Source of the DNA: Euptelea pleiosperma | Taxonomy: Eukaryota; Streptophyta; Magnoliopsida; Ranunculales; Eupteleaceae | Reading direction: 5' to 3' | Assembly (NCBI GenBank): GCA_035048495.1 | Contig: CM068544.1 | Span: 13,758,138-13,822,137, forward strand | DNA length: 64,000 nt | Notes under the pieces: model-generated | What the model saw: only the letters and a program-made list of their open reading frames with translations | The model's database searches: none | What the model was told of the DNA's origin: nothing | Shown: positions 2,872-61,029 of the stretch, in pieces | Position numbering within the stretch: position 1 is the first letter of the stretch | Layout: every line of letters starts with the position of its first letter | Made by a program: the position numbers and the translations under genes

Positions 2872-2904
<33 letters not shown>

Positions 2905-4382: not shown

Positions 4383-4400
4383 TGGCGCCGCTGCCGCTCG
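4383..4400 (+). promoter_or_regulatory. Primer binding site of element A
   Basis: TGGCGCCGCTGCCGCTCG follows the LTR after AA. It is the same tRNA-Asp-like variant as in element B. Confidence 0.82.
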
Positions 4401-5156: not shown

Positions 5157-5273
5157 GAACACGATCCAGTGTGGGTAGAGAGCAAAAGCTCAAAGAGGTG
5201 GAGTCGGGCCCAAGCCCATTAGGATACCCCTCTCTAACCCACGGAGGAGACCCCGTGGCGTGGCCCACGGGAG
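5157..5273 (+). other. Exon-like 117-nt segment in the leader of element A
   Basis: It is preceded by CTAACTTTTCTGCAG and followed by GTAAGTC. Same length and boundaries as in B and E. One frame, starting two bases in, is open throughout in A, B and E and gives a similar 38-residue peptide, but it has no start codon of its own. Confidence 0.5.
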
Positions 5274-5920
5274 GTAAGTCTCTATCCTCGCCTTGAGTGC
5301 GATACAGAGCATATTGGGTGCATCATTGCCGCTTGTCTATTTGCTTTCGCATCCATATTCTTCGACTTGCGTGGCGTGGCCGTTAATCAATCAACTCTAA
5401 GAGAGCAGACCCAGCTCCAAATTGAAACTGGTGGGATTTCATCACCCACCTCATCATTCCAACTGATTTGATCCCAAGGCTCCATTTAATTAAAAAGAAT
5501 CAAGCAGTAGAGCCAATTAGCCCGGTGTTCGAGGAAAAATCCACACAAAGCGAACCCGCTTAACATCCAATCGAAATAAGACCACGAGCGCGGGTCCCTG
5601 TTGTCTAACACACCCATAAGTCCCTGCTACTCAAGTACACTGAGCTCGACGTGGCATCTTGGACTATTCGGCGGTTAGTTGCGTGTGGACTAGGAACACG
5701 CACCAACCCTAGCTTAACCCGAGGGAACACTCTTCTTATACACTTGACCAATCCGGTTAGTCTGGGACGTACTTAAGACAGCCATTGTGCCGCACGTCTG
5801 TCTAGGCTTCGGATTGCCTTGTTGTTAACTAGAGTTAGTACTAAAGGATTCGCTCTGAAGAGTGTAGCCTGGTGAGAACCTATGAGTGCATACAGTTAGT
5901 CCGGCGGCTAAAAAATAAAC

Positions 5921-5937
5921 CAGTGGTCCGCCCACTG
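5921..5937 (+). other. Leader hairpin upstream of gag, element A
   Basis: CAGTGG, a five-base loop and CCACTG, 242 bases before the ORF start. The same hairpin is present in B (13399-13415) and E (46975-46991). A packaging or dimerisation role is possible but only inferred. Confidence 0.5.
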
Positions 5938-6178
5938 TCATAATCTACTCTAGCCCCAAAACTAACAAGATAATGCCTAAAATATATCCTGATTGTTTAG
6001 AATAGGATTATCTGTGCTTGGTGTGCATCATTTAGAATCACTACTCCAGTATCTCCTTTTGGCAATTTTTTACCAAATCTTGGGCTTGCTTTTTCAAGTA
6101 GACGCCCGGTTGGACCTGTCCTAACCTTTTACTGACTCGATCTGAGAGTTAGTCCACCACACCCCTCTATCGCCTCTA

Positions 6179-7999: not shown

Positions 8000-8393
8000 G
8001 TGTTTCCGTTCCACCTTAGGTGTCAGGAAGACTGCAGATTCACTCAGTCTCCATGAGTTTTATCCTGGTTGGGGGTACTTGATATACCCCCGTCATGTCT
8101 GGCTGAAGACATAAAACTTAGCGCTTTCGGAAAGGCAATTCCGGTATTCCTAGAATACATGAGTCTCATGCATTTGTTATTACTGTTATATCTCTGAAAA
8201 TGCAGGTACATTCATTCTTCCGATCATCAGGTATCACACTGTCGAGTTTCTGCCGACTTGGTAACATCCTCCCTGAACCTTTGCATCATCATCACTGATT
8301 TTTCATCATTTTATGTCCCGGTCATGAGCACCGAGGACGGTGCTGTATTTTGGTTGGGGGTGGGTATTTACCAAAACTCATGTCTTCATTTTG

Positions 8394-8395
<2 letters not shown>

Positions 8396-8443
<48 letters not shown>
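8396..8443 (+). repeat. Poly(A) tract inside element A
   Basis: An uninterrupted run of about 48 A. A shorter run lies at the same place in B (about 19599) and E (about 49491), and as T runs in D (about 36763) and K (about 63573). Confidence 0.9.
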
Positions 8444-8457
<14 letters not shown>

Positions 8458-9983
8458 GTTTTTGGGGTGATTTCCGATGTTCTCTAAAAGTTTTCTAGAA
8501 TTTCAAAAATGTGTCAAATACCCTGACTTTGATTAGCTGAAAACCTCCGTTAAGTCAGTATTGAGGATGTCAATTTTTGTTTAAAGTTAGCGTTGAGTCA
8601 ATTCAAGCGTGACTACAGCAGGTTTGAAAACTCAGAAAAACTCATATTCGGCACAATTGTACACTATCAATATCAGAGTCATCCTAAGTTTAGAAATTCT
8701 AGAGACCCTGCGAGAATAATTGTGGAGACCGAACCCAGTGAGCTTTCGAGCCTTTAATCAATTCAGAGTGTTATACAACAATTCTGAGTCACAAGATGAC
8801 TCACTATTCTTCATGCCCGCAATATTCGTTGAGAGATCTCATTATCTTTTGCTTCGATCATAAAACTCGGAACGACATCAACATTGGATTACTACGACAG
8901 AACCTTCTCTGTATCCAGTCAAGACAGTATACATGATAGTGCAAACCCTAGAAAATGATTTAGGCCATTTTTCTGAACCATTCAGCCTTTTTACTCACCT
9001 GAATTGTACTTCACTAGAAACCCCTTGAGCCATTCTATAAAAGCCTTTTTCTTTGTACACCCATCAACCTAAAATCTAGTCCAGCTACGAAGCATAATTG
9101 TCTACCCTTATTTTGAGATGGACAAAAGAATAACTGATATGGGTGTACCGTGAAAAGAAAAGTAAAGAAGAAGAATCAAAAGGAAAAGAAAGTGGTTCAA
9201 GCTGAAAACAAAATATGAAAAGAAAGTATGAAGAAGAGCTGAAAAGAAATTGAGCAGTCTCAGAAATATCAAGAAAAAGAGAAAAATACGAAAAAAAGGA
9301 AAAAGAACCAGATAATGGTGTTACGCCGCAGGAAAAATACAAGAAAATGGCAATATCCTCTCAAGATCTTTGAAATCCTGTATCCCTTTATCTCTCTACA
9401 CCTGACCTAAGCCTCATTACAACCCAGGAAAGTCCTACTTGATTCTAGGATAGTACGATCATAAAATGTGGAGATTGGAGAAAGAGAAGCTATAGAGTTT
9501 GATCTGACGTTCCCGAGTGAAGTGGTATTCCAATCATGAGATCTTCTTCTGTTAAAGATGTCCTTCCTTCAAATAAAACATATGTGAGATCTTTTGCCTC
9601 TTTATATTAAATACATCTCCTCACATATAAATTGAGAGAAAAGAAGAAAACACTTCTTGTGTGATTCTATTCTGAGTGTTAAACATGTGAGATTTGAGGT
9701 CGAGGCATAAAAACTTAGAGGTGATCTGGAAATCTTTACTGTTGGATGATGAGAATGTTGAGCACACACACACGCAGAGTCTGACTATTCTGGGTCATGA
9801 TTATCAGTCTGTAGTCTTGCCAAAACTTTCCAACTCTTCGCTACCATGTAACTATTTTTGCATCCATTCAATGATTTGACGAACGGTGTTTTCCCTGAGC
9901 TAATTTGAAAAAGTGTGCAGCATGTGCAGAGCCCTTTTAAGCTCATTTATTTCGCACTAATTGCCAAGGATTGGCAATATGCT

Positions 9984-9995
9984 GGTTGGGGGTTG
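9984..9995 (+). promoter_or_regulatory. Polypurine tract of element A
   Basis: GGTTGGGGGTTG lies immediately before the 3' LTR, where plus-strand DNA synthesis would be primed. The same sequence occurs in E, and on the minus strand in D, H and K. Confidence 0.8.
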
Positions 9996-11680
9996 TGATA
10001 TTCGCTCAAAAGTGCTTATTTTAAGCAATTATCCTGTTAGCGTTATCGCACTCTCCTACGTAAAAGGCTCTATTTATCTACTTTTCTACGTAAGAGTCTC
10101 TTTTGTTGCGTAGAACACATTTTTCTGGACGAAATGGTATATTTGCATGCATTAAACACATTTTTGGAAGTCTAGGTATGAGACGTTATGATTGAGACTC
10201 ATTACGCGTTTTTCACTACTTTCAGGAAATCCGATCGGACAAGTCTTGAAACGTGCGGGCCCACAATCAACCTACAATGCCTTTGAACAAAGCTTAGAGA
10301 GCCAGTGAACTTAGACAAGAAGATATAGGCCGAGTGTGGGAATGAGCCAAAGGATCAAAGAACTAGAAAGACGACCAAGAGAGTTGAAGTGTAGATTTTC
10401 AAGAAATGAGACCAAAATACAAGAAACCCTAAAGTGCGCAATGAAGAACAAGATTGCGGGAGGAAAAATGCTTGGTCCCCAAGCTCAAGAACCTATTGTC
10501 AAGAACACGAAGTCCAAGATTGAACTGAGCACAAGTTAAACCGAGTTGGTAGACCAAGATTATTGGCTGTGACTGTCAAAATATAGTTGTGGAACTTGTG
10601 GTTGACTGCAAAAATATAAAACGTGGAGCGGGTCTTTGAAACATATAGATGGTCTTGATTTAAGTCATTGAGTTGACAGCGGGTCAAGGCAACAATTGGA
10701 AAGTGAGATGTGCAGTCATGTGTATGGTAATCAAAATAGAAGTGCAGGAATTGCTTGAAAAGATGGGCTAGCACATGTGATAGCCAAGGTATTGGGCCTT
10801 GAGCTGAGCCTTACAAAGTGTGGATGACCTATGGTAATATTGTGGGCCAAGTCTATTGGCCAGCATAGATGGTGTGGCCTGGGTTTTAATAAGATTGTTA
10901 CATAGTGGATCAAGAAGATCTGGATGATCTTAGCACTAAAGAACGGGATGGCCGGAGGATTAGAGTTGCTACACAAAATCTTGTACACCAAAATACATGG
11001 ACTGGTGAAGCATCAAAGCAAAGATAGTGGGCTAATGTGATGGGCTAGTGGGCCACAAAGGCCAGCCACGATGCTGGCAAAAAGATCTAAGATGTACGGC
11101 TATGAGTGAAGAGAGATGAAGGGTTTGGTACTTGAAAGAAAAGCTGGACCATTGGACTTGAATAAGGGGAGTCCATCTCTCCATATATTATGTGGAGATC
11201 TCTCCACGTCATGACAGCTCACCATCCCTAGTTACTATTTCTCACCCTTAAAAAGAAAAGAAAGAGAAGGGTAGAAAGGGGAACGTGCATCTCTTCTTCT
11301 CTCGGATAACCCTAGCCACCCCATATATATTCCCTTCTTCTCCCCATGTTTGAGGGGCCTCCTCTCTTCCCACTTGAGGATGATCATTCACTCTCTCACC
11401 TTACCGCCCCCATCTCTTCCTTCTCTTCTCCTATCCCAACTCTTCCCACGTCCTCTCTAACTCTCATCTCCATTCCTTCTAGAAAACCACCGGTTGCTCC
11501 TCCTCTTAGGCAACCAGCGGTTTCACCGCTGCACCTCCACGCAACCCATCCTCAACGTAATCTGGAGTTGCAAAACCTGCAACTCCAGCCGTCCACAGGA
11601 GTTCCCTTAACCCCTATCTTCTCTACATCTTCTCTCCTCTCTTGGAGAAAAGCTGAGTCGCCCTCTCGATCTTCTCCAGC

Positions 11681-11713
<33 letters not shown>

Positions 11714-13189
11714 TTCAAGAGTTCGCCGGAGTTGCAACCTGCAACTCCGACGAGCTCCATTAACGCCGGCAGCCTGCGACCTCTCTCACTCCCTGTCACT
11801 CTCTCTCACTCTATCATCTCTCTCAACACCATCTCTCTCTTCTCCGGAGCTCTCCCACGTTTCTTTTTATTTTTTTCTTTCTTTCTTCTTCAATATCTCC
11901 GGAGTTGCAGGTTGCAACTCCGGCAACGGTGCCACCATTAACGCCTGCCGCTGCTGCTGTTGCTTCTACCCCTTGCAACTCTCCACCTCTCGCTAGCAAC
12001 CACCACGAAGACCACTCTCGTCGCCATTTTCTCTTCCTCTCCACGGTGTTGCTGCACCGCCTGAAAATCCTTCACCATTCTCCACGTCATTGCTGCAACC
12101 TTGGCTTTTAAGAGTTGCAGGCCGTCATCTTTTCCGGTAAACCACCTACTCCACCCGTTGGACGTTAAACCTGCAACCCCGCTCCTCCTCATTGCTGGGA
12201 GCCGTCATCATGATCTCACCTGGCTGGGACGTCACCAACTTCTCCATGGCAATCTCCTTTGATCGTGCTTCACTCAGCTGCTGCTACATCTAGCAGCCTC
12301 TTCCCAACCATCTTCTCACCATCGTGAAACCACCTGCTGTAGTCTCCATCCACCTCAGAACCAACGGTCAGCAACCACCACCGTTTTCCCTCTCTCACGC
12401 TACCTTCACCACAGCACCTTGAGGACTGCGCCACGACCACTTGCTGAACCGTGTACATCATGTCTCCTCCTCAACCTTCATCTCCATCTCAAGTCAAGGC
12501 CAGTGCACTCCATCTCTTAAAACTGATCAAGCCATCTCCCTGGCTGCCCTGTCCATCACCAACTCCACTTGGCCGACCAGTCACTTGGACCGCCACGTCA
12601 TGCTAGTTTCCTTCGAGGGCTGCAATCACTCACACTATCTCCGGTAAGTGTTCAAAGGTGAGGATCTAATTTTCTCTCTCTAGATCTTCTTACTCTCTTC
12701 ATCTCTCTAGGCCTTTTATCACTTTCTCTCTCTAGCTCTCTCCTTCTCTCTCTAGCATCCTCTTGTTTTACCTCTAGGATAGTTTATTTGTGTTTATTTT
12801 CTTTTATTATCAGTGTAAACAGCTTTTGATGATTTAATAAAAGTAGTTTCCATTCAAGTTCATTTTTGTGAGTTCATTATCATGAATAGTAATTTTAAAC
12901 TTATTTGTTTAGCAATCCCAGTGATTAATATTCAATCTTCAAAATCAAACATCATGTTTTGAATCCAACCTCATCACTCTTCTTCTGTCATTATTTCTAT
13001 CAATTTCTGAGAAGAAAATCCGTCATTTTATGTGTTAAGTTGCGCAAACTAACCCCGAGTGCGGATCGACATCCGACACGAATCCCTATACAAAAGTTCA
13101 TATTTTACAGGTTAAAAGTCTCGGATTAATTAAAAATGTGTTGAAGTTAGGGTTTCCGTAACCAACGACGCGGAAAAACCCTATTTTCA
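9996..13189 (+). repeat. 3' LTR of element A
   Basis: 3194 bp and apparently identical to the 5' LTR at an offset of 8809. It ends in TTTCA, followed by the duplicated CTCCT. Confidence 0.95.
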
Positions 13190-42090: not shown

Positions 42091-43860
42091 GGGAGAAGAT
42101 TCGGGGAAGGTTTTGGGGAAGGAGAGGAGGAGAGGGGAGAGGGATTAGGGTTCGAACGAACCCCTATCCTTCTCCTTTTAAAGCTTCCCTATTTCCTTTA
42201 ATGGAAATAGGGGATTTTTTGAATAAAAAAAATACGAAAAATAATTTTTAAATTTTTTTTTTTTTTTTAAGTAAAAACCTACTTTTCTATGGGGAATCTC
42301 CCCAATTAGTGGACCCCCCATTTAATTAAAATTATTTTTGAAATTCGCGGGGTCCACTAACTGGTCGGACAGCGGGTCGATGATGGTGGGCCCGGCTACT
42401 GGCCCACATGGACTGATGATGTGACAGGCATTCTGAAGGCGATCGGATGGATGGTGACTTGATTGGGACCCAGATTGGTAGATCGACGGATCTAGAGAGA
42501 TCCAACGGTCCGATTGAAGATCCAACGGTCCGATGGAAGATCCAACGGTCAGAAAGCTAAGGGAGATGAGATAGAGCCGAAGGGTAGGAGTTCTGGGGTT
42601 AGGTCAGTAGATTCGAGGATCGAAAGATGAAGAGAGAGAGAGAATAAGAAGAGATGAGAGAAAAAGTATCAAAAAAATGGAAAAAAGCACTAGCGGAGGG
42701 TCTGGAACCCTGGTCTTCACTGTGACCATCCTCACGCTTCTCCAGTAGAGTCGACTATCATTCCTTGCTGACCCATGTGGCTTTAAACGCTTTGGTCTGT
42801 CTCTTGGTCATTGGCTCTCCTGCTCTCTTCGTTCTTTGGGCCGGCTTTTTGGTCCTCTTATTCAGCCCATATTTGGCCCATATCTTCTAGTCATGGCATG
42901 TGGGCTCTTTAAGCTTTGATAATGGGCTTTCCTGATCGATGTGGGCTTGCAAGTCTCGAGAATTGTCCCATCGGGGTTTCCTGCGACAGAAGAAGCGCGT
43001 AATGAGACTTTATCAGAACGACTCAATGTCTAGACTTCCGAAAATGTGTTTAATGCATGCAAATATACCATTTCGTCCAGAAAAGTGTGTTCTACGCAAC
43101 TGAAGAGACTCTTACGTAGAAAAGTAGATAAATAGAGCCTTTTACGTAGGAGAGTGCGATAACGCTAAAAGGATAATTGCTTAAAATAAGCACTTTTGAG
43201 CTGATATTCGCTCAAAAGTGCTTATTTTAAGCAATTATCCTGTAGCGTTATTGCATTCTCCCACGTTAAAATACTCTATTTATCTACTTTTCTACGTAAG
43301 AGTCTCTTCTGTTGCGTAGAACACACTTTTCTGGACGAAATGGTATATTTGCATGCATTAAACACATTTTCGGAAGTCTAGATATTAAGCCGTTCTGATA
43401 AAGTCTCATTACGCGCTTCTTCTGTCGTAGGAAACCCCGATGGGACGATTCTCGAGACTTGTGGGCCCAAATCGATCATGAGAGCCCATTATCAAAGCTT
43501 AAAGAGCCCACATGCTATGACTAGAAGATATGGGCCAAATATGGGCTGAATCAGAGGACCAAAAAGTCGGCCCAAATAACGAAGAGAGCAGGAGAGCCAA
43601 TGACCAAGAGACGAACCAAAGCGTTTAAAGCCACATGAGTCAGCAAAGAATGATAGTCGACTCTACTGGAGAAGCGTGAGGATGGTCACAGTGAAGACCA
43701 GGGTTCCAGACCCTCCGCCAGTGCTTTTTTCCATTTTTTTGATACTTTTTCTCTCATCTCTCCTTATTCTCTCTCTCTCTTCATCTCTCGGTCCTCGAAT
43801 CTACTGACCTAACCCCAGAACTCCTACCCATCACCTCTATCTCATCTCCCTTAGCTTTCT

Positions 43861-43910
43861 GACCGTTGGATCTTCCATCGGACCGTTGGATCTTCAATCG
43901 GACCGTTGGA
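43861..43910 (-). promoter_or_regulatory. Three tandem TCCAACGGTC motifs (MYB3R/MSA-like) in the E LTR
   Basis: GACCGTTGGA at 43861, 43881 and 43901, exactly 20 bp apart. The complement contains AACGG, the core of mitosis-specific MSA elements bound by three-repeat MYB factors. Similar arrays occur in S, F, D, H and K LTRs. The regulatory role is inferred. Confidence 0.45.
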
Positions 43911-44414
43911 TCTCTCTAGATCCGTCGATCTACCAATCTGGGTCCCAATCAAGTCACCATCCATCCGATCGCCTTCAGAATGCCTGTCACATCATCTTGT
44001 GAGACGATGGACATCATCAGTCCATGTGGGCCAGTAGCCGGGCCCATCAGCATCGACCCGCTGTCCGACCAGTTAGTGGACCCCGCGAATTTCAAAAATA
44101 ATTTTAATTAAATGGGGGGTCCACTAATTGGGGAGATTCCCCATAGAAAAGTAGGTTTTTACTTAAAAAAAAAAAAAAAAAAAAAAAAATTTAAAAATTA
44201 TTTTTCTTATTTTTTTTATTCAAAAAATCCCCTATTTCCATTAAAGGAAATAGGGAGCTTTAAAAGGAGAAGGATAGGGGTTCATTCGAACCCTAATCCC
44301 CCCCCTTTCTCTTCCATTCTCTTCCCCTATCAATCCCGCACAGATCTCTTCTCCTTCTGGCCCCATCTTCCCTTCTTCTTAATTTTTTTTTTCTTCTTCT
44401 TCCTCCTCATCTTC

Positions 44415-44441
44415 GCCGGAGTTGCAGGCAGCAACTCCGGC
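44415..44441. repeat. LTR core hairpin in E (5' LTR)
   Basis: GCCGGAGTTGC, AGGCA, GCAACTCCGGC. The second copy is at 44583-44610; the 3' LTR copies are at 52268-52294 and 52439-52466. Confidence 0.88.
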
Positions 44442-44454
44442 CATCAAGGTCTTC

Positions 44455-44513
44455 CTCTTCTTCTTCTTCTTCTTCTTCTTCTTCTTCTTCTTCTTCTTCT
44501 TCTTCTTCTTCTT
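44455..44513 (+). repeat. (CTT)n microsatellite, 5' LTR of E
   Basis: About 19 units; the 3' LTR copy (about 52308-52369) is one unit longer and accounts for the 3-bp length difference. Confidence 0.9.
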
Positions 44514-45982
44514 GCTGCCCGGACAGCAACACCAGAACCGTGCTGCCTCCTCCTCTATCACCGTCTTCTTCATCAAGTTATCGCCGGAGTTGCAGGTCTG
44601 CAACTCCGGCCATCTCCCCTTCTTCTTCTCTATTTCCTTCTCCTCTTTCTCCCTCGTCTGCCTGCACTTAAGGCATTCCTGAAACCGTGCATCATATCGC
44701 AGCCATCACCCCATCCACGAGTTGCAACCAGCAACGCCCCTCCACCACCGTCTTCTCCTTCCTCCTTACAACGCCTCACCTTCCCTTGGAACGGCGGTGA
44801 CTGTTCTTCCAACAGCCACCATCGTTTCCATCTCTTCTCTTTTGATGGATCTGGATCATCTTCTCCATTGGAAAAGGAGGAAGACGTCCACTATTGCTGG
44901 CTTACAAACAGATCTCGATCGGTTGATGATCTCTCCACTCTCTCCTTCACGCACAGCTGCCCTCAACTTGCGTTCTACATCCAGCCACTTGTAGCCACCG
45001 TCTCATGCGCCACAGCCATCGTTTCATGCACCACAGCCGTTAGCTTCCATCCCTACGCCTGTTCCACCGCTCAAAACAGTCATCTCTCCACCGTCCTCAC
45101 CTTTGCACACCACGGTGATCTTCATACCGTGGAGCACATCAGCAACCACAAACGTTGCTGCCTCCTCCGCCATCTCACAGGAAGAACCTCACCATCACGA
45201 TCTCTCACAGGAGATTGGCTGCCTCTACGTGCATCAAGTGAGTCCAAGTCAGTTGCAGCAACGTGCTGCTACCCTCAACGCCTCCACTAGCCTACCTCCA
45301 CGCATCCATCACCGGAATCCACCATCTTCTCACTGTTCTGGTATACCAACCAGCAACACCAGTCACCCTCACCTTGATGCCTCCATCTTTCTGCAACTCA
45401 CATGCAACTCAGCTTGCACAACGGCCATCACCCACCGTAAGATCACGAGGTAACCCTATCTCTCTAGGTTTCTCTCTCTAAAACCCTCTATCTCTCTCTA
45501 AGTCATTTTAGGTCTTCTCTCACTTTCTCTCTCTAGACCTTCTCTCACTATTTCTTTCTCTCTCTATTCCTTTACGAATGCTTTATAGATTAGCTTTCTT
45601 CTTGGCATATTTATTTCAGAAGTTATGTAATTGACAATTTTATTAGATTAATGGATGATTTCAATGTTGGTTATTATGATTTTGCTATTTCGCATTAGTT
45701 AGGTTATTAATTTCATGGCTCTCTCTCTAAATCAAAGCATATTTTAATCCGATCTATCCACCACTCTCACCCCACCATCATTCGCATCAATTTCTATGGA
45801 AAAATCTGTCATTTTATGTTCTTATTTGCGCTAATCCGACTAATCCCGAGTGCGGATCGACATCCGACACGAGCCACTGTGCAAAATTGCTCATTTTACA
45901 GGTTAAAAGTCTCGGATAAATTAAAAATGTGTTGAAGTTAGGGTTTCCGTAACCAACGACGCGGAAAAACCCTACTTTCAAA

Positions 45983-46000
45983 TGGCGCCGTTGCCGGGGA
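45983..46000 (+). promoter_or_regulatory. Primer binding site of element E (exact tRNA-Asp complement)
   Basis: TGGCGCCGTTGCCGGGGA, 18 bases, two bases after the LTR. It matches the complement of the plant tRNA-Asp 3' end in full, unlike the variant PBS in A and B. Confidence 0.92.
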
Positions 46001-46070
46001 AGGTGAGGCGTTGTAAGGAGGAAGGAGAAGACGGTGGTGGAGGGGCGTTGCTGGTTGCAACTCGTGGATG
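45997..46070 (-). repeat. 74-nt exact inverted copy of the E LTR placed against the PBS
   Basis: The stretch is the exact reverse complement of 44712-44785 in the 5' LTR (also present in the 3' LTR). It overlaps the last four PBS bases (GGGA) and ends where the normal leader sequence AATTTTAACCC resumes. The roughly 600 bp of leader found in A at this point is missing. Confidence 0.93.
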
Positions 46071-47231
46071 AATTTTAACCCATCTCGAATTTGGAAACTC
46101 ATTCAAAAACTTGCCTAAATTCAGTGCTTGTTCAGTGAACCCTAAAAAGGCAAGGATCTTCCAAATAGAATCCCACATACCTAGACCCTGCGATCTAACT
46201 GTTTCTGCAGGAACACGATCCAGTGTGGGTAGAGAGCGAAAGCTCAAAGAGGTGGAGTCGGGCCCAAGCCCATTAGGATACCCCTCTCTAACCCACGGAG
46301 GCGACCCCGTGGCGTGGCCCACGGGAGGTAAGTCTCTATCCTCGCCTTGAGTGCGATACAGAGCATATTGGGTGCATCATTGCCGCTTGTCTATTTGCTT
46401 TCGCATCCATATTCTTCGACTTGCGTGGCGTGGCCGTTAATCAATCAACTCTAAGAGAGCAGACCCAGCTCCAAATTGAAACTGGTGGGATTTCATCACC
46501 CACCTCATCATTCCAACTGATTTGATCCCAAGGCTCCATTTAATTAAAAAGAATCAAGAAGTAGAGCCAATTAGCCCGGTGTTCGAGGAAAAATCCACAC
46601 AAAGCGAACCCGCTTAACATCCAATCGAAATAAGACCACGAGCGCGGGTCCCTGTTGTCTAACACACCCATAAGTCCCTGCTACTCAAGTACACTGAGCT
46701 CGATGTGGCATCTTGGACTATTCGGCGGTTAGTTGCGTGTGGACTAGGAACACGCACCAACCCTAGCTTAACCCGAGGGAACACTCTTCTTATACACTTG
46801 ACCAATCCGGTTAGTCTGGGACGTACTTAAGACAGCCATTGTGCCGCACGTCTGTCTAGGCTTCGGATTGCCTTGTTGTTGACTAGAGTTAGTACTAAAG
46901 GATTCGCTCTGAAGAGTGTAGCCTGGTGAGAACCTCTGAGTGCATACAGTTAGTCTGGCGGCTAAAAGATAAACCAGTGGTCCGCCCACTGTCATAATCT
47001 ACTCTAGCCCCAAACTAACAAGATAATGCCTAAAATATATCCTGCTTGTTTAGAATAGGATTATCTGTGCTTGGTGTGCATCATTTAGAATCACTACTCC
47101 AGTGTCTCCTTTTGGCAACTTTTTGCCAAATCTTGGGCTTGCTTTTTCAAGTAGGAGCCCGGTTGGACCTGCCTTAACCTTTTACTGACTCGATCTGAGA
47201 GTTAGTCCACCGCACCCCTCTATCGCCTCTA
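46071..47231 (+). other. Untranslated leader of element E
   Basis: Close to 5021-6178 of A. It contains the exon-like segment (46211-46327), the CAGTGG/CCACTG hairpin (46975-46991) and the gag start. No gene. Confidence 0.75.
46211..46327 (+). other. Exon-like 117-nt segment in the leader of element E
   Basis: CTGTTTCTGCAG precedes it and GTAAGTCTC follows. Same length as in A and B. Confidence 0.5.
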
Positions 47232-49085
47232 ATGGCAGATGAACGGCCTCTGTATGAGACCTACTACAGTTTCTGTGAGAATCGAGGTGATCACTCTCAA
47301 CAATGGTATGACAATTCTGCGTATCATCATGATACTCCAGTCTCGCACACTTCTACAGGGTATGATAATCACCGAGATCCGGAGTACAATTCTATACTCC
47401 AAGGGCTTAAAAATTCAGTCTCTGCCCTTCGTGCCGCAGTCCAGCAACCTGTGTACCATTCCCAGTCTGTAGGATATTACCCTCCTATCCAGCAAGATGT
47501 CTGTACCTTTCCATCTCCAATGCAGACATCCTATGACAACACTTATTATCAGGATAATAGGAGTCACCATAACTTTGGTTGGGAACAGTCTGCCCTCCCG
47601 CAGCAACTGCCGCAGGATAATTATCCTTCCGGGTTCCATCAACCCAATGGAGAGTATGACTGGCAATACTCGCAATCCCAGTACCCGTCATATCCACAGA
47701 ATGACTATTCTGCTCAACAGTGGGCCCCTCAGGATTTTCAGAGTCAGCAACTAGTCCCAGACTCCACTTTGCCTTACAACTTTCATACCCAGTCGGACTA
47801 CAATCAAGAGGTAGCACCTCAGCTCCCCTTGGCTGAACCACCTCCGTTGGATACTAAACCCGGTCTAGAGGACCTTCTCTCTCAGTACATTGCCCAGCAA
47901 CAACAGTATTTCCAAAGTCTAGAGAACCAACAACAGCAATCTATGGAGAGCTTGGAGCAACGTCTAGTTCAATTAGAAAATGAGAGAGAGGAAGTCAACT
48001 TCACTAGTCCACCGATAGCTTATCCTGAGGAGAATGATATGGCCACTGTCTATAATGAGGAGCCGCACAATTGGACCCAGTACCGGCATTGCGAGGAAGA
48101 AATAGAAATTGTACCCACCCCTAGATCGAGCCAGACTATTGAGGAGCCAGTATTTCTTTCTTCGGTGCCTTTAAAAGCACCACATCCTGAACCTACCTCA
48201 GCGCAACCTATTTTTCACTCTCCCACTGCTGCTTCTACCCTGGACTCTGAAGATGATCATCATGACACTGAGTTTTGTCTCGATCGTAGGATCCCTGCTG
48301 TCATAGATCTACCGTTCCTCCCCACCTCCCTTGGATTGTGCAACAATTGTGATGAACCCGAGTCTCAATCTTTGGTGCCCTTAACAGCACCAACTTCTGG
48401 ACTGAGCACAGAGGAACTTAGTCCCATCTCTATCTCTGATAATTCTCTCTCTACTCTGAATGCAGACATTCCCACCGTAGAGCCGTGTCTAGAAAATGGG
48501 CCTCCCGCTATCCTGGACCTACCGATCTCCACCCAGGAGGAACATACTGAGTGCAGGGATTGGAACATCCCTATCACATCAGGAAACATCGAGAAAGAGG
48601 TCAACAGTTTTCACCCGTCACCCTACGTCGATGTTGTTGATGAACCATATGTCATTGAGAGTCTAATTCAGGACTCTCCAGAGGATAATTTATCCAAGTG
48701 TCATGCACACTGTGAGTTTGACTTCATCTCGAAGTCCAATATTTCCGGTATTACTGATCTGCAGGAGTCTGCTCCATTCAGATACATTCCCGCAAAACTC
48801 AATGAGTTTGCGGCTCTGCTAACCACGGTCAGAGAACCCACTACTACTCCCCTCTCAGTCTTTACTGCGAAGCTTCTATCCCTCCCCGCTGAACTAAATG
48901 TTTTTGCGGGTCTGCTCAGAGAACCCACTCCTACTCTCCTCTCAATCTTTACTGAGAAGCTTCGATCCCTCCCAGATCAACTCCGTGCTTTTGCCGGGCT
49001 ACTCCGAGAGCTCAATGCCCTTCTCTCAATCTACACTGAGAAAGACCTGTTCTACACAGGTATACCTAGACAAGGGATAGGATAG
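47232..49085 (+). CDS. Gag-derived protein of element E, relative of the 606-codon ORF of A
   Basis: 617 codons, intact, start MADERPLYETYYSFCE. Same order as the product of A: short Gag N-terminus, Q/Y/S-rich low-complexity stretch, KPGLEDLLSQYIAQQQQ with a likely coiled coil, two degraded protease-tail segments (RRIPAVIDLPFLPT and CLENGPPAILDLPI), VESLIQDSPEDNL, and three C-terminal repeats ending LLSIYTEKDLFYTG. Compared with A it has an extra EIVPTPRS-type stretch and many substitutions without loss of frame. No capsid, CCHC knuckle, protease DLGA or pol. If translated it is the only protein this element makes. Function is unknown. Confidence 0.85.
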   Translation: MADERPLYETYYSFCENRGDHSQQWYDNSAYHHDTPVSHTSTGYDNHRDPEYNSILQGLKNSVSALRAAVQQPVYHSQSVGYYPPIQQDVCTFPSPMQTSYDNTYYQDNRSHHNFGWEQSALPQQLPQDNYPSGFHQPNGEYDWQYSQSQYPSYPQNDYSAQQWAPQDFQSQQLVPDSTLPYNFHTQSDYNQEVAPQLPLAEPPPLDTKPGLEDLLSQYIAQQQQYFQSLENQQQQSMESLEQRLVQLENEREEVNFTSPPIAYPEENDMATVYNEEPHNWTQYRHCEEEIEIVPTPRSSQTIEEPVFLSSVPLKAPHPEPTSAQPIFHSPTAASTLDSEDDHHDTEFCLDRRIPAVIDLPFLPTSLGLCNNCDEPESQSLVPLTAPTSGLSTEELSPISISDNSLSTLNADIPTVEPCLENGPPAILDLPISTQEEHTECRDWNIPITSGNIEKEVNSFHPSPYVDVVDEPYVIESLIQDSPEDNLSKCHAHCEFDFISKSNISGITDLQESAPFRYIPAKLNEFAALLTTVREPTTTPLSVFTAKLLSLPAELNVFAGLLREPTPTLLSIFTEKLRSLPDQLRAFAGLLRELNALLSIYTEKDLFYTGIPRQGIG

Positions 49086-51054
49086 TTGTCTTCGTTCCAC
49101 CTTAGGTGTCAGGAAGACTGCAGATTCACTCAGTCTCCATGAGTTTTATCCTGGTTGGGGGTACTTGATATACCCCCGTCATGTCTGGCTGAAGACGTAA
49201 AACTTAGCGCTTTCGGAAAGGCAATTCCGGTATTCCTAGAGTACATGAGTCTCATGCATTTGTTATTACTGTTATATCTCTGGAAATGCAGGTACATTCA
49301 GTCTTCCGATCATCAGGTACCACACACTGTCGAGTTTCTGCCGACTTGGTAACATCCTTCCTGAATCTTTGCATCATCATCTCTGATTTGTTATCATTTT
49401 ATGTCCCAGTATTGAGCACCGAGGACGGTGCTATATTTTGGTTGGGGGTGGGTATTTACCAAAACTCATGTCTTTATAAATAAATAAATAAAAAAAAAAA
49501 AAAAAAATTTCCTTTTTTGGGTGATTTCCGATGTTCTCCAAAAGTTTTCTAGAATTTCAAAAATGTGTCAAATACCCTGACTTTGATTAGCTAAAAACCT
49601 TCGTTAAGTCAGTATTGAGGATGTCAATTTTTGTTTAAGGTTAGCTTTGAGTCAAGTCAAGCGTGGCTACAGCAGTTTTGAAAACTTAGAAAAACTCAGA
49701 TTCGGCACAATTGTACACTATCAATATCAGAGTCATCCTAAGTTTAGAAATTCTAGAGATCCTGCGAGAATAATTGTGGAGACCTAACCCAGTAAGCTTT
49801 CGAGCCTTTAATCATTTTAGAGAGTATACATTAATCCTGAGTCACAAGATGACTCACTATTCTTCATGCCCGCAATATTCGTTGAGAGATCTCATTATCT
49901 TTTGCTTCGATCATAAAACTCGGAACGACATCAACATTGGATTACTACGACAGAACCTTCTCTGTATCCAGTCAAGACAGTATACATGATAGTGCAAACC
50001 CTAGAAAATGATTTAGGCCATTTTTCTGAACCATTCAGCCTTTTTTACTCACCTGAATTATACTTCACTAGAAACCCCTTGAGCCGTTCTATAAAAGCCT
50101 TTTATTTGCAAACCCATCAACCTAAAATCCAGTCCAGCTATGAAACATGACTGGCTACCCTTATTTTGAGATGGACAAAAGAATAACTGATGTGGGTGTA
50201 CCGTGAAAAAGAAAAGTAAAGAAGAAGAATCAAAAGGAAAAGAAAGTGGTTCAAGCTGAAAACAAAATATGAAAAGAAAGTATGAAGAAGAGCTGAAAAG
50301 AAATTGAGCAGTCTCAGAAATATCAAGAAAAAGAGAAAAATACGAAAAAAAAAAAAGGAAAAAGAACCAGATAATGGTGTTACGTCGCAGGAAAAATTCA
50401 AGAAAATGGCAATATCCTCTCAAGATCTTTGAAATCCTGTATTCCTTTATCTCTCTACACCTGACCTAAGCCTCATTACAACCCAGGAAAGTCCTACTTG
50501 ATTCTAGGATAGTACGATCATAAAATGTGGAGATTGGAGAAGGGGAAGCTATAGAGTTTGATCTGACGTTCTCGAGTGAAGTGGTATTCCAATCATGAGA
50601 TCTTCTTCTGTTAAAGATGTCCTTCCTTCAAATAAAACATATGTGAGATCTTTTGCCTCTTTATATTAAATACATCTCCTCACATATAAATTGAGAGAAA
50701 AGAAGAAAACCCTTCTTGTGTGATTCTATTCTGAGTGCTAAACATGTGAGATTTGAGGTCGAGGCAGAAAAACTTAGAGGTGATCTGGAAATCTTTACTG
50801 TCGGATGATGAGAATGTTGAACACACACACACGCAGAGTCTGACTATTCTGGGTCATGATTATCAGTCTGTAGTCTTGCCAAGACTCTCCAACTCTTCGC
50901 TAGCACGTAACTATTTTTGCATCCATTCAATTATTTGACGAACGATGTTTTCCCTGAGCTAATATGAAAAAGTGTGCAGCATGTGCAGAGCCCTTTTAAG
51001 CTCATTTATTTCGCACTAATTGCCAAGGATTGGCAATATGCTGGTTGGGGGTTG
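49086..51054 (+). other. Conserved 3' non-coding region of element E
   Basis: Same sequence landmarks as in A: GGGGGTA/TACCCCC dyad near 49157-49177, AGCACCG hairpin at 49415-49432, GGTTGGGGGTGGG near 49440, A run near 49491, TGAGTCA dyad near 49839, purine-rich block near 50200-50365, CA repeat near 50821. No credible ORF. Confidence 0.75.
51043..51054 (+). promoter_or_regulatory. Polypurine tract of element E
   Basis: GGTTGGGGGTTG directly before the 3' LTR. Confidence 0.8.
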
Positions 51055-53836
51055 TGATATTCGCTCAAAAGTGCTTATTTTAAGCAATTATCCTGTAGCG
51101 TTATTGCATTCTCCCACGTTAAAATACTCTATTTATCTACTTTTCTACGTAAGAGTCTCTTCTGTTGCGTAGAACACACTTTTCTGGACGAAATGGTATA
51201 TTTGCATGCATTAAACACATTTTCGGAAGTCTAGATATTAAGCCGTTCTGATAAAGTCTCATTACGCGCTTCTTCTGTCGTAGGAAACCCCGATGGGACG
51301 ATTCTCGAGACTTGTGGGCCCAAATCGATCATGAGAGCCCATTATCAAAGCTTAAAGAGCCCACATGCTATGACTAGAAGATATGGGCCAAATATGGGCT
51401 GAATCAGAGGACCAAAAAGTCGGCCCAAATAACGAAGAGAGCAGGAGAGCCAATGACCAAGAGACGAACCAAAGCGTTTAAAGCCACATGAGTCAGCAAA
51501 GAATGATAGTCGACTCTACTGGAGAAGCGTGAGGATGGTCACAGTGAAGACCAGGGTTCCAGACCCTCCGCCAGTGCTTTTTTCCATTTTTTTGATACTT
51601 TTTCTCTCATCTCTCCTTATTCTCTCTCTCTCTTCATCTCTCGGTCCTCGAATCTACTGACCTAACCCCAGAACTCCTACCCATCACCTCTATCTCATCT
51701 CCCTTAGCTTTCTGACCGTTGGATCTTCCATCGGACCGTTGGATCTTCAATTGGACCGTTGGATCTCTCTAGATCCGTCGATCTACCAATCTGGGTCCCA
51801 ATCAAGTCACCATCCATCCGATCGCCTTCAGAATGCCTGTCACATCATCTTGTGAGACGATGGACATCATCAGTCCATGTGGGCCAGTAGCCGGGCCCAT
51901 CAGCATCGACCCGCTGTCCGACCAGTTAGTGGACCCCGCGAATTTCAAAAATAATTTTAATTAAATGGGGGGTCCACTAATTGGGGAGATTCCCCATAGA
52001 AAAGTAGGTTTTTACTTAAAAAAAAAAAAAAAAAAAAAAAAATTTAAAAATTATTTTTCTTATTTTTTTTATTCAAAAAATCCCCTATTTCCATTAAAGG
52101 AAATAGGGAGCTTTAAAAGGAGAAGGATAGGGGTTCATTCGAACCCTAATCCCCCCCCTTTCTCTTCCATTCTCTTCCCCTATCAATCCCGCACAGATCT
52201 CTTCTCCTTCTGGCCCCATCTTCCCTTCTTCTTAATTTTTTTTTTCTTCTTCTTCCTCCTCATCTTCGCCGGAGTTGCAGGCAGCAACTCCGGCCATCAA
52301 GGTCTTCCTCTTCTTCTTCTTCTTCTTCTTCTTCTTCTTCTTCTTCTTCTTCTTCTTCTTCTTCTTCTTGCTGCCCGGACAGCAACACCAGAACCGTGCT
52401 GCCTCCTCCTCTATCACCGTCTTCTTCATCAAGTTATCGCCGGAGTTGCAGGTCTGCAACTCCGGCCATCTCCCCTTCTTCTTCTCTATTTCCTTCTCCT
52501 CTTTCTCCCTCGTCTGCCTGCACTTAAGGCATTCCTGAAACCGTGCATCATATCGCAGCCATCACCCCATCCACGAGTTGCAACCAGCAACGCCCCTCCA
52601 CCACCGTCTTCTCCTTCCTCCTTACAACGCCTCACCTTCCCTTGGAACGGCGGTGACTGTTCTTCCAACAGCCACCATCGTTTCCATCTCTTCTCTTTTG
52701 ATGGATCTGGATCATCTTCTCCATTGGAAAAGGAGGAAGACGTCCACTATTGCTGGCTTACAAACAGATCTCGATCGGTTGATGATCTCTCCACTCTCTC
52801 CTTCACGCACAGCTGCCCTCAACTTGCGTTCTACATCCAGCCACTTGTAGCCACCGTCTCATGCGCCACAGCCATCGTTTCATGCACCACAGCCGTTAGC
52901 TTCCATCCCTACGCCTGTTCCACCGCTCAAAACAGTCATCTCTCCACCGTCCTCACCTTTGCACACCACGGTGATCTTCATACCGTGGAGCACATCAGCA
53001 ACCACAAACGTTGCTGCCTCCTCCGCCATCTCACAGGAAGAACCTCACCATCACGATCTCTCACAGGAGATTGGCTGCCTCTACGTGCATCAAGTGAGTC
53101 CAAGTCAGTTGCAGCAACGTGCTGCTACCCTCAACGCCTCCACTAGCCTACCTCCACGCATCCATCACCGGAATCCACCATCTTCTCACTGTTCTGGTAT
53201 ACCAACCAGCAACACCAGTCACCCTCACCTTGATGCCTCCATCTTTCTGCAACTCACATGCAACTCAGCTTGCACAACGGCCATCACCCACCGTAAGATC
53301 ACGAGGTAACCCTATCTCTCTAGGTTTCTCTCTCTAAAACCCTCTATCTCTCTCTAAGTCATTTTAGGTCTTCTCTCACTTTCTCTCTCTAGACCTTCTC
53401 TCACTATTTCTTTCTCTCTCTATTCCTTTACGAATGCTTTATAGATTAGCTTTCTTCTTGGCATATTTATTTCAGAAGTTATGTAATTGACAATTTTATT
53501 AGATTAATGGATGATTTCAATGTTGGTTATTATGATTTTGCTATTTCGCATTAGTTAGGTTATTAATTTCATGGCTCTCTCTCTAAATCAAAGCATATTT
53601 TAATCCGATCTATCCACCACTCTCACCCCACCATCATTCGCATCAATTTCTATGGAAAAATCTGTCATTTTATGTTCTTATTTGCGCTAATCCGACTAAT
53701 CCCGAGTGCGGATCGACATCCGACACGAGCCACTGTGCAAAATTGCTCATTTTACAGGTTAAAAGTCTCGGATAAATTAAAAATGTGTTGAAGTTAGGGT
53801 TTCCGTAACCAACGACGCGGAAAAACCCTACTTTCA
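51055..53836 (+). repeat. 3' LTR of element E
   Basis: 2782 bp, nearly identical to the 5' LTR. It ends CCTACTTTCA and is followed by TGAGC. Confidence 0.95.
52308..52369 (+). repeat. (CTT)n microsatellite, 3' LTR of E
   Basis: One unit longer than the 5' LTR copy. Confidence 0.88.
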
Positions 53837-55623
53837 TGAGCGAATATCAACGTGCTCTATTCTCTTCCATGTTCGGCCTCCTTAACTTACAACTAGCAGG
53901 CTGGATCTTGATCTCCACCACCTTTTCATGCAAAGCAGATCCACTGATCTGATGGTTCCTCCACCAACGGCCATCCTCATCATCTAATATCAACATTGTT
54001 GCCCCTCTCTTGGGCAGCAACGTAGGTTGTTCTCCCCACCATTCCTCCACCTTTCCAACAACAACAACCTTCTGTCTCCTCCTTCATCGTAGGCAGCAAT
54101 GTTGCTACACCTCTTTGCCTCTACCACCTGCAACTTCACTAAGTTGCAAGCCATCCTTTGATCCTCCCTTTGAGCAATCACCTTCCTCGTCTTCTTCATC
54201 CTCTTCACATCTTCCTACCGGAGTTGCAGCCTGCAACTCCCGGTAGCACAACTTCAACAGCACCTGCTGGTGTGTCCCTCACTAGACCCAAGCTTCCTTG
54301 CTGGGCAACCTCCTTACGGCTCAACCTTGCTGCCAAATCGGGCTCCTCTTCTCTGCCGGCCAAACTAGCAAACCTGCAACTTCCGACGAGTTTCTCCTCT
54401 TCTTCAGGAGGTCCTTTTCCCTGTACCAAATCGGTAACTTACGGATGTAGGAACACCTGCAACTTCAGCATCCACGTGAAGACCTGCTAGTGCGTCTTCA
54501 TTTCTTACGCCTCAACTTGCTAGTGTGTGTTGTTCTTCCACCTCATCAACAGTTTCAGATCACTCCGGGAGCCAACATGTTGCTCCACTAATGGTTTGCG
54601 CCGCTGCCCCCCTTCATCACCGTTGCACAGAGGTACAACACCATCTTGCTGCCCACTCTTCCTCTCCTTCTTCTTCTCCACGATCGGACCTGTGCACACC
54701 TCCGTCCATCCCCTATTTTTCCTCCACCATCCATGCGCGTACTGCTCCTTTCAAATCTCCCCGCCGCTGCACATACCAGCAACCTTGCTGGTTTTCCTTC
54801 AACCATCTCCACCTTCTTCTTCTTCAAATCTCCATTCACCGGAGTTGCAGACCAGCAACTCCGGCCATTGCCTCCTTGTGCTAAGTTGCAGATCTCCTCC
54901 TTGGAGAACCAGCAGGCGATCTCCTTGCTGGCTGAACACCAGCCTGCAATACCGGTGAATGGTGGCCATTCCACGATCTGGAAGTGAGGCGTATCCTCCA
55001 ACGTGCTCTAGCCTCCTTCTCCGGCCTCACCTGGTTCTCCCCTCTCCTTTGCACGGTCTGCCAATACTCAATTCCTTTCACCATCATCTTCTTTCCGGCC
55101 ACCTGCAACTCTGGCCAGTCACAACAAATCGCCAGCCACCTTCAACGCAACCTGCAACGCCCTCCTTGACCATGCTTCTCCACGGCCAACCACCTGCAAG
55201 TTGGGTTCCCCCACTGCCATGTAGCACTTTGGAGAGCTTCTCCTCCCACGTGTGTTCTGTCTGTGTGCCTCCATCATACAGAATAGTCCGTGTTGTCTCC
55301 CCTGAGCAGCAAGGCCATGCACACTCTTGGGTTCCCTCACCTGCGCATGCAGCCTGATCTCCTCCAAGGCAACGACTCAGCACTCCAAGGTGCATCTTCT
55401 CCTCCATTCCCTTGTCCAACCTGCTCCACCATGCAGCCACCACATACATTCACCTCCTCCTCCATGCAAGCATCGCATGTGCCCCTAGTGCAAACTTACC
55501 GGGGCCGATCCGATCAATGGTAAGTGTTTGAGGTTAGTTTCTCTCTCTAGAAATTACTTTCTCTCACTAGTGCCATTTTCTCTCTTCTTCTACTTTCTCT
55601 CTCTAGATCTCCTCTCTAAATGA

Positions 55624-58104: not shown

Positions 58105-59492
58105 TAAAATACTACTTTTCTATGGGGAATCTCCCCAATTAGTGGACCCCCCATTTAATTAAAATTATTTTTGAAATTCGCGGGGTCCACTAACTGGTCG
58201 GACAGCGGGTCGATGCTGATGGGCCCGGCTACTGGCCCACATGGACTGATGATGTCCATCGTCTCACAAGATGATGTGACAGGCATTCTGAAGGCGATCG
58301 GATGGATGGTGACTTGATTGGGACCCAGATTGGTAGATCGACGGATCTAGAGAGATCCAACGGTCCGATTGAAGATCCAACGGTCCGATGGAAGATCCAA
58401 CGGTCAGAAAGCTAAGGGAGATGAGATAGAGCTGATAGGCAGGAGTTCTGGGGTTAGGTCAGTAGATTCGAGGATCGAGAGATGAAGAGAGAGAGAGAAT
58501 AAGGAGAGATGAGAGAAAAAGTATCAAAAAAAATGGAAAAAAGCACTGGCGGAGGGTCTGGAACCCTGTTCTTCACTGTGACCATCCTCACGCTTCTCCA
58601 GTAGAGTCGACCATCATTCTTTGCTGACTCATGTGGCTTTAAACGCTTTGGTCCGTCTCTTGGTCATTGGCTCTCCTACTCTCTTCATTCTTTGGGCCGA
58701 CTTTTTGGTCCTCTTATTCAGCCCATATTTGGCCCATATCTTCTAGTTATAGCATGTGGGCTTGTTAAGCTTTGATAATGGGCTTTCATGATCGATTTGG
58801 GCCCACAAGTCTCGAAAATCGTCCCATCGGGGTGTCCTGCGACAGAAGAAGCGCGTAATCAGAACGGCTTAATATTTAGACTTCCGAAAATGTGTTTAAT
58901 GCATGCAAATATACCATTTCGTCCAGAAAAGTGTGTTTTACGCAATGAGATAGACTCTTACGTAGAAAAGTGGATAATTAGAGTAGTTTTACGTAGGAGA
59001 GTGCGATAATGCTAACAGGATAAGTGCTTAAAATAAGCACTTTTGAGCGAATATCACAACCCCCAACCAGCATATTGCCAATCCTTGGCAATTAGTGCGA
59101 AATACATGAGCTTAAAAGGGCTCTGCACATGCTGCACACTTTTTCATATTAGCTCAGGGAAAACCCCGTTCGTCAAATCATTGAATGGATGCAAAAAAAG
59201 TTACATGCTAGCGAAGAGTTGGAAAGTTTTGGCAAGACTACAGACTGATAATCATGACCCAGAATAGTCAGACTCTGCGTGTGTGTGTGCTCAACATTCT
59301 CATCATCCGACAGTAAAGATTTTCAGATCACCTCTAAGTTTTTATGCCTTGACCTCAAATCTCACCTGTTTAGCACTCAGAATAGAATCACACAAGAAGG
59401 GTTTTCTTCTTTTCTCTCAATTCATATGTGAGGAGATGTGTTGATATATGAAAGCAAAGATCTCACATATGTATTATTTGAAGGAAGGACAT

Positions 59493-61029
59493 TGAAAGTA
59501 GGGTTTTTCCGTCGTTGAGAGAACGACCCTAATCTCAATACATTTGTAATTTCGATCTGAGATTTCCTGCAAAATTAAGCTATGCTTTGCATGGTGGAAG
59601 TATGTCGGATGTCGATCCGCACTCGGGGTTTAGTTAGCGCAAACAAGAACATAAAATAACGGAAGAATGTAAAAACATCATGGTTCATAAATGCTTCTAA
59701 AAATGAATGGTGGGATGAGAATGATGGAGAGGTCGGGATTTAAAACATGCTTTTGATTTTATTGATATCAAAGAACTATAATTCGCAAAAATCATATAAT
59801 TCAAAAGAGAACACTAAAACCAAGAATAATTGCATTAATTTAAACTGTCATTACATCAAAACAAAACTTACATAATTCAAACTAATCTAGAAAGAAGTAA
59901 AACTAGAGAGAGAGAAAGAGTTAAAATAGAGAAAATCTAGAGATTTTTAGGGCGAGAAACAAGAACTAAGAGAAGTCCTAGAGAGAGAAAGATAGACATA
60001 GATAGAGAAATTGAACGGACCGAGGGATAAGGGAGGGAAACTGTATTTTGATCTTACCATGGTGGTTGCGGGTTTCCAGTGTTGTAGGCTCATACCGTGG
60101 AAGGTCATATTGAGTTTCCGGCCAAGAAATAAGATGTGCAGTCCGATCGTGGCAGTAGCTTGGAGAAGTAGATCATTGTGGTCTGGGCTATGGAAGGCGC
60201 ACCAACAGGTGGTTGTTGCTCGCCGTTTGGGGATGAAGGAGGTGTTGCTGCTGGGGGACTTGCTGATGAAGATGGAGGAACGGTTTGGTGATGCGTTTAT
60301 GGCAGCAACGCAAGGTTTAACGGCCCGCAACTTGCAGGCCGTGGCAGCAGCAGGTGGAATGGAGATAGGTAGGGGCGGTTTCTCCTCCTTCTTCTTCTAC
60401 TCTCTTTCTTATACGATGGGTGGAGGTGATAATCGGACCGACCGGAGTTGCAGGTCCGGCTACACGGTGGCTGAGATCGTGGAGATTCGTTGGGCAGCAA
60501 GGAAGAGCACCAAACTCGATGTTGCAGGTGGGGTTGGTGATGAGAAACACCGTGAGTGCTTGCAAGGAGAAGGCAAACACAGGCAGTGTAGTGCCGTTGG
60601 ATTTGAAGATCACCAGCAGGTGGTACCGGCGACTGTGGTGGGCGGTAATGGAAGGAGAAGATGAACCAGTCCGGCGAGAACGGTGGTGGCTAGCGGGCGG
60701 CAAAAAGGAGAGGAAGATGATGGTTTTTAGCTGGTCGAACCAGCAATGAAGGGCCAAGGAGATGATGACGGCTGGGGTTAGCAATGAGAAGTCGTTGGCC
60801 GGAGTTGCAGGCTGCAACTCCGGTGATAGAGATGAAGAAGATGAAGAAGATTGAGAAGAGAAAAATGGAGGACAACGGTCTAAAACCGAGGGGAAGAAGG
60901 GGCAAACGAGTTGGGGGAGAGAATGGAGCAGATTTGAGGGGGATTAGGGTTCGAACGAACCCTTCTCCCTCATCTTATAAAGCTCCCTATTTCCATTAAT
61001 GGAAATAGGGTATTTTTTGAAAATAAAAA

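Follow-up and report, generated by a model that had tools for sequence, protein, structure and literature searches.

Element B and its neighbours

The window, the whole 64-kb stretch of contig C5 of the 613-Mb Euptelea pleiosperma genome that was analysed, holds an LTR element, element B, which spans positions 43202–53836 on the plus strand. Its 5′ LTR (43202–45980), delimited by self-comparison, its boundaries and the target duplication, and its 3′ LTR (51055–53836), delimited by self-comparison and the target duplication, are one substitution and one CTT repeat unit apart, and the element is flanked by two copies of the target duplication TGAGC (43197–43201 on the left and 53837–53841 on the right). 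The LTR ends and the 5-bp duplication are the marks of an ordinary cDNA insertion, which a change taking place after insertion would leave intact as well. Element B inserted (43201/53837) no more than about 13 bases from where an older, inverted LTR of its own family has its head, so that two LTR heads now lie back to back.

The PBS of element B (45983–46000; TGGCGCCGTTGCCGGGGA) is of the 18-nt tRNA-Asp type, with 18/18 matching positions, and no match at up to three mismatches was found in 100 shuffles of the 64-kb window. Its last four bases, GGGA (45997–46000), form a tRNA-like part that is absent from the closest sister elements. They are followed by a 70-nt inverted copy of the LTR (46001–46070), delimited by exact-match comparison, and by a second joint (46070|46071) at which this copy gives way to a leader devoid of 617 nt present in the sisters. 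The remaining internal region (46071–51054) contains as its longest ORF a single frame of 617 amino acids (47232–49085), for which no Pfam match was found and for which a protein search returned nothing at E ≤ 0.001.

Two further elements precede element B. Element Z extends from before the window to 24818, is interrupted by element A, and carries three ORFs with gag, protease, RT, RNase H and integrase domains (Pfam). Since the ORFs of Z hold domains of the gag-pol type while the longest ORF of B has no Pfam match, element B looks non-autonomous. Element A (1187–13189) has two identical 3194-nt LTRs, which point to a very recent insertion, and a CTCCT target duplication. The PBSs of elements A (4383–4400) and Z (132–149), both on the plus strand, display the ordinary form of the family, matching the form found in B at 13/18 positions, and ordinary relatives elsewhere match the tRNA-Asp form of B at 13–14/18. 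Elsewhere in the window, on the minus strand at 59492–59493, an LTR tail directly abuts 3′-internal-like sequence, with neither PBS nor leader between them, as the result of another deletion or of a nested insertion.

A tRNA-Asp-type PBS combined with a long leader is also found in the Athila/Diaspora/Calypso lineage of plant Ty3-gypsy elements, a likeness judged on features. Domains of the gypsy gag-pol type are found here in the relative Z, in contrast to the long ORF of element B with its lack of a Pfam match. The PBS of Diaspora is described as perfectly complementary to 18 nt of tRNA-Asp (PMC1142308), unlike the ordinary PBS of the B family with its 13–14/18 matches. An Arachis element also has a perfect tRNA-Asp PBS, a form that is commonplace among other elements of plants.

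The inverted LTR copy and the unrearranged sisters

The sequence-only reading had described 45997–46070 as the exact reverse complement of 44712–44785, joined at the last base of the PBS with GGGA shared by both sides. The match holds over 74/74 nt, and the alignment places the joint as described; when mismatches are allowed, the inverted pair extends to 85 nt, with 82/85 identities (44712–44796 against 45986–46070). As GGGA at 45997–46000 belongs both to the PBS and to the inverted LTR copy, the switch point may lie anywhere from 45996|45997 to 46000|46001. The second joint (46070|46071) has no microhomology. Within the window, no inverted LTR copy was found in the internal stretches of elements A and Z that were tested (E ≤ 1e-3).

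The converse possibility, that the LTR had acquired a copy of the leader, was rejected. A genome search with a 161-nt LTR stretch that encloses 44712–44785, in which 40 of 105 candidates were scored, returned 34 full-length hits, two of them the LTRs of element B itself, as well as the inverted 85-nt copy of element B and 16 partial hits; orientation, for which the strand given is that of the contig, is known for the full-length hits and the inverted copy, the 16 partial hits being outside this count. The 161-nt stretch is thus complete at 32 other places in the genome, 28 of which run to the LTR end; moreover, this stretch suits the pyrimidine-rich strand of the LTR. In the predicted RNA fold from the 5′ LTR into the leader (44712–46070), the two copies form a perfect 74-bp stem (74/74 pairs) that includes the last bases of the PBS, and this inverted repeat is a possible source of double-stranded or silencing RNA.

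The closest sisters of element B are two copies on contig C3 (L053 and L054), between which no difference exists in the 2601 nt retrieved. They are identical to element B at 1307/1307 positions from 44690 to 45996 and, in the segments fetched from the same copies as L002 and L003, at 1630/1630 positions from 46071 onwards. Between these two points the sister has a 617-nt leader that starts with CTCG, its PBS reading TGGCGCCGTTGCCG followed by CTCG, while in element B this place is taken by GGGA plus the 70-nt inverted LTR copy. With identity on both sides, it follows that element B lost the leader segment and gained GGGA and the inverted copy. The earlier estimate that some 600 bp of leader present in element A are missing from B was thus right, the figure being 617 nt with respect to the closest sister. 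On the same contig, three LTR copies of the B kind at 14159824, 14168215 and 14176606 are spaced by 8391 bp, as in two elements that share an LTR, and it is the leaders of these copies (L053 and L054) that are the closest relatives of element B.

The ordinary state of the PBS was assessed in two samples of relatives, which overlap in the two sister copies. Among 19 loci fetched by leader similarity, a sample selected for having a leader, positions 15–18 of the PBS are CTCG in 17/17 relatives with a detected PBS, and in all 17 the point equivalent to 46071 is reached after 631–637 nt. Among 32 loci fetched with the LTR segment, eight have a PBS after the LTR, of which seven carry CTCG and one (L065) reads through into tRNA sequence; in a ninth (L061) the LTR is followed by AATGG and an inverted LTR tail. 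In L068 the divergence comes at a later point of the leader. The presence of CTCG in the sister and in all 17 relatives indicates that the tRNA-like end of the PBS is new in element B. The claim that the perfect PBS was freshly copied from the tRNA is supported for GGGA, which replaces the CTCG of the sister, but not for position 9: the T at this position, considered as a sign of fresh copying, was rejected as such because the sister has it too.

A search of other copies for the same junction, proposed as a check by the sequence-only reading, disclosed none: among the 40 of 4390 candidates scored in the genome search only element B spans the junction, and its continuation is absent from 67/67 other exact GGGGA sites. 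No match to the junction pattern in a viral collection, or to an LTR-head pattern in viral and prokaryote collections, was found, as expected for a plant element. Judged from these sequence matches, the junction is unique among the copies examined, and the near-identical LTRs and the identical sister place the rearrangement in the recent past.

The similarity between the PBS and the copied LTR continues beyond the 74 exact bases, where the LTR complement CGCCGTTCCAAGGGA and the PBS CGCCGTTGCCGGGGA agree at 12/15 positions. The corresponding LTR site (44782–44796, with TCCC opposite GGGA) ranks first within the LTR both by matches and by duplex energy, with −15.7 kcal/mol against −11.6 kcal/mol for the next site. 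In a Markov model of the LTR, an equally good site ending in GGGA arose in 6/500 runs, and 4/7178 of the simulated GGGA sites had at least 8/11 matches beyond GGGA. The location of this extra similarity on the PBS side agrees with a PBS-ended strand having acted as the primer. In a partition-function fold of the naked single-stranded LTR and PBS, the PBS is found in a local hairpin and not on the LTR site.

PBS sites with a tRNA-like end across the genome

Element B is one of a larger class. At up to one mismatch, TTTCAAATGGCGCCGYTGCCGGGGA occurs at 113 sites in the 613-Mb genome, the reversed control giving none. The 68 exact sites, namely 66 read over 335 nt together with element B and L065, were classified, leaving 45 one-mismatch sites outside the classification; among the 32 of these that were listed, position 18 is not A in two. 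The exact sites are distributed over contigs C1–C14 and seven smaller ones, and mostly display the same stop. In 51/68 of them the tRNA-like run stops early, at 18 nt (40 sites), 19 nt (nine) or 20 nt (two), a distribution close to that predicted from a single stop at 18 nt with chance extension. We take position 18 of the PBS to correspond to base 59 of the tRNA, which adjoins A58.

The other 17/68 sites continue to 31–71 nt of antisense tRNA-Asp, with at most two mismatches allowed, in comparison with a tRNA-Asp sequence assumed to represent that of the host. ARAGORN identified a tRNA-Asp(gtc) in one (L144) of the six loci given to it, and with the Rfam tRNA model, given four loci, the antisense stretches of L131 and L144 scored 46 and 27 bits, respectively, the cut-off being 29. 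As DNA repair has no tRNA template, at least these read-through junctions go back to reverse transcription.

After GGGGA, about 56 different continuations are found among the 68 sites, a rough figure obtained with a grouping threshold of 85% over 50 nt; six read-through sites that diverge only later fall into one group in this way, and some kindred sites are separated (L104 and L141 are counted apart). With repeats included and the best match required within 40 nt of the joint, the best source of the continuation is the inverted LTR at 23 sites, sense internal sequence at 22 (eight of which are the ordinary leader), the sense LTR at four and antisense internal sequence at none, 19 sites being assigned no source; eight of the 23, one of the 22 and one of the four duplicate the junction of another site, and the assignment of L086 corresponds to a 22-nt match. 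A second look at the 19 sites without a source identified L119 as antisense internal, so that the proposition that such copies never occur was rejected, and pointed to the inverted LTR for L136 and to sense internal sequence for L101 and L123. Before the second transfer, plus-sense DNA comprises only the LTR and the PBS, while minus-sense DNA holds everything; inverted LTR and sense internal continuations are consequently what a stranded plus-strand end would make. The presence of the ordinary leader after GGGGA at 8/68 sites, with L090 and L115 looking alike, means that not every GGGGA site represents a failed transfer.

At the 19 junctions usable for this purpose, microhomology averages 2.95 nt, against 0.72 nt under random joining, a value reached in 0/5000 simulations; at the eight inverted-LTR junctions the mean is 4.0 nt. 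The remaining 49/68 sites were left out as junction repeats (10), as unaligned at the joint (13), as ordinary leaders (six) or as unassigned (19), together with L128. For element B the value was set by hand to 4, since the 15 returned by the program ran through the mismatched PBS similarity, and L096 was kept, although it possibly represents the L094 junction in a divergent form. Position 9 of the PBS is C in 47/68 and T in 21/68 of the tRNA-ended sites, T being the base of the tRNA, and the occurrence of C beside a tRNA-copied end suggests the correction of a heteroduplex.

The plan of element B, with a full LTR, PBS, inverted LTR and leader, is not to be assumed for the whole class, as the upstream side was rearranged at all five sites where it was fetched. 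Three of them (L093, L117 and L143) show a short recognizable LTR ahead of the PBS, with inverted internal sequence upstream of it; in the other two (L122 and L130) the rearrangement is of another kind. Of six inverted pieces compared with the element's own LTR, only those of L130 (100% over 54 nt) and L122 (98% over 288 nt) aligned well, both in the same direction; as both upstream sides are rearranged, these matches speak neither for nor against an own-LTR origin. Six sites (L094, L095, L104, L114, L143 and L147) share nearly one tRNA-ended junction to the inverted LTR, with GGGGA followed by ATCTCCCC, which indicates that certain rearranged forms have become more numerous, by multiplication or by duplication; no such increase has been seen for the junction of element B. 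Behind L143, the shortened LTR preceded by inverted internal sequence is such that an inverted U5-PBS block may have spread.

Two other insertions likewise bear the target duplications of ordinary cDNA integration. L065 (contig C12, 12185475 onwards) has an ATGAT target duplication and LTR parts that differ at 1/1292 positions; its PBS is followed by at least 24 nt of antisense tRNA-Asp read-through, about 400 nt of inverted-LTR-like sequence and the leader. A clear origin of this insert from the element's own LTR was not upheld, the matches being weak and repeat-rich. In the small copy L061/L060 (contig C3, 13016502–13022661), with an ATGGT target duplication and identical LTR parts (0/1291 differ), the LTR is followed by AATGG and an inverted LTR tail, as if plus-strand DNA had turned back after three PBS bases.

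A probable failure of plus-strand transfer and its alternatives

Element B most probably goes back to a cDNA whose second strand transfer was unsuccessful, the tRNA-copied end of the plus-strand strong-stop DNA having mis-primed. The strong-stop DNA would consist of U3-R-U5 with an 18-nt extension templated by the tRNA-Asp primer, whose 3′ end would be TCCCCGGCAACGGCGCCA, and would terminate in GGGA-3′ at the m1A58 block. Since the parent genomic PBS would carry CTCG and not GGGA at its last four positions, the minus strand would be a poor template for elongating this 3′ end, and the mismatch between the genomic PBS of the family and the tRNA at these four bases is probably the cause of the mis-priming. 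The GGGA end would anneal to TCCC and to additional PBS-like sequence on an LTR strand of plus sense, either its own or that of another molecule, and its extension by 70 nt would generate the inverted LTR copy. At 46071 the growing strand would then move over to the minus-strand DNA of the leader, with the loss of 617 nt, and the finished cDNA would be integrated normally. That the rearranged element could still insert, as had been proposed from the sequence, is in keeping with the LTR ends and the TGAGC duplication on both sides.

From what is directly observed, namely the anatomy, the unchanged sister, the four tRNA-like bases, an annealing site that ranks first in the LTR, and the many other tRNA-ended junctions, we infer the identity of the strand, the order of the switches, the PBS mismatch as the cause and a reaction in cis rather than in trans. 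For element B itself, the case for a tRNA origin of GGGA lies in four bases, which the LTR copy could also supply: a blunt join at 45996|45997 would give GGGA wholly from the latter.

Of the snap-back proposed in the sequence-only reading, mis-priming on TCCC followed by the copying of 70 nt stands as the best mechanism, given the CTCG of the sister, the first-ranking site and the class of similar junctions. Its fold-back component is plausible but unproven: the fold of the naked DNA speaks against it. The presumed return to the leader would have taken place without microhomology, a point against the mechanism as a whole. A version of the same mechanism in trans, in which the strong-stop 3′ end finds its template in the LTR of a second plus-sense molecule within the particle, accounts for a substantial though minor share of our confidence in mis-priming and adds nothing to it. 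Such particles package two RNAs, and the naked-DNA fold does not favour pairing in cis. On the other side, element B contains a single, simple and short copy, most simply given by fold-back in cis, and the 74-nt copy is identical to its own LTR; being identical also to the LTR of the sister, the copy does not separate the two versions.

A quite different origin, in which a chromosomal double-strand break arising after insertion was repaired by polymerase-theta end joining, with the loss of 617 bp of leader and the addition of a 74-nt filler from the nearby LTR, is improbable. Deletions with templated insertions are a known outcome of this pathway in Arabidopsis (PMC10923293). Microhomologies of about 3 are typical of it, and the template would lie some 1.2 kb away. 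Such a repair would nevertheless require a break within 4 nt of the PBS end and a chance conversion of CTCG into the GGGA of the tRNA, and leaves without explanation the further copies with the same terminal PBS base, the 17/68 sites that read into tRNA-Asp, and the 23 inverted-LTR continuations against one inverted internal case. The joint lies at the end of the tRNA-copied 18 nt, a position common to other copies, and not at a break unrelated to the landmarks of reverse transcription.

Still less probable is a double template switch of the minus strand, from the leader to a minus-sense LTR strand and from there to the PBS of the genomic RNA. Minus-strand template switching is common and would lead to the same final sequence, but the extra LTR similarity is found on the PBS side, where the paired part of a primer belongs, and the nascent TCCC would mismatch the CTCG of the sister genomic PBS. 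The mis-joining of two LTR copies during assembly, conceivable in a repeat-rich region known from one assembly, is hardly credible, as it gives no reason for stopping at the last tRNA-copied base or for the mostly identical stop at the exact sites on contigs C1–C14 and seven smaller ones.

The mis-priming proposed for element B has partial counterparts in known systems. Self-priming of HIV-1 minus-strand strong-stop DNA at TAR was reportedly described by Guo in 1997 (cited in PMC10986323); there too the strong-stop DNA primes on itself instead of being transferred, but the other strand and the other transfer step are involved, and the product in B was integrated. HIV-1 plus-strand synthesis stops at m1A58 after 18 nt and yields minor longer products (PMC13191261), a sharp stop with a minority of longer tRNA copies that resembles the pattern found here; the ends described here, by contrast, are known from copies integrated into plant DNA. 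Retroviral 'deletions with insertions' are ascribed to template switching (PMC3187697, citing Pathak and Temin 1990) and likewise combine a deletion with an insert arising in replication, but in element B the primer end is a tRNA-copied PBS and the insert is inverted LTR. Aberrant LTR-element structures have also been attributed to reverse transcription in Triticeae (PMC1950507); unlike element B, these template-switching complexes are fused elements sharing an LTR, and words in 'inver-' and 'strong-stop' are absent from that text. No report of genomic traces of the kind described here was found in the literature searched, whose coverage excludes most subscription papers. Ordinary members of the B family resemble a case cited in PMC5371799 in keeping a tRNA-mismatched PBS, whereas B and its like appear to inherit the tRNA-copied end.

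The agreement of the ordinary family PBS with the tRNA-Asp form at only 13–14/18 positions offers a cause for repeated failures of transfer. It is on balance likely that plus-strand transfer in this family fails repeatedly through PBS mismatch and that each failure is stored as a junction, the genome thereby constituting an in vivo catalogue of strong-stop 3′ ends that documents the m1A58 stop, the share of read-through and the choice of wrong templates; such failures would create new combinations of LTR and leader, some of which multiply. The many integrated strong-stop ends present in this plant genome allow the stop next to tRNA position 58 to be read base by base, and permit direct tests of the frequency of read-through at this position, of the templates taken by a stranded end, and of whether mismatch between PBS and tRNA drives the birth of rearranged, non-autonomous elements. 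The genome of E. pleiosperma thus appears to preserve traces of a copying step that usually leaves none.
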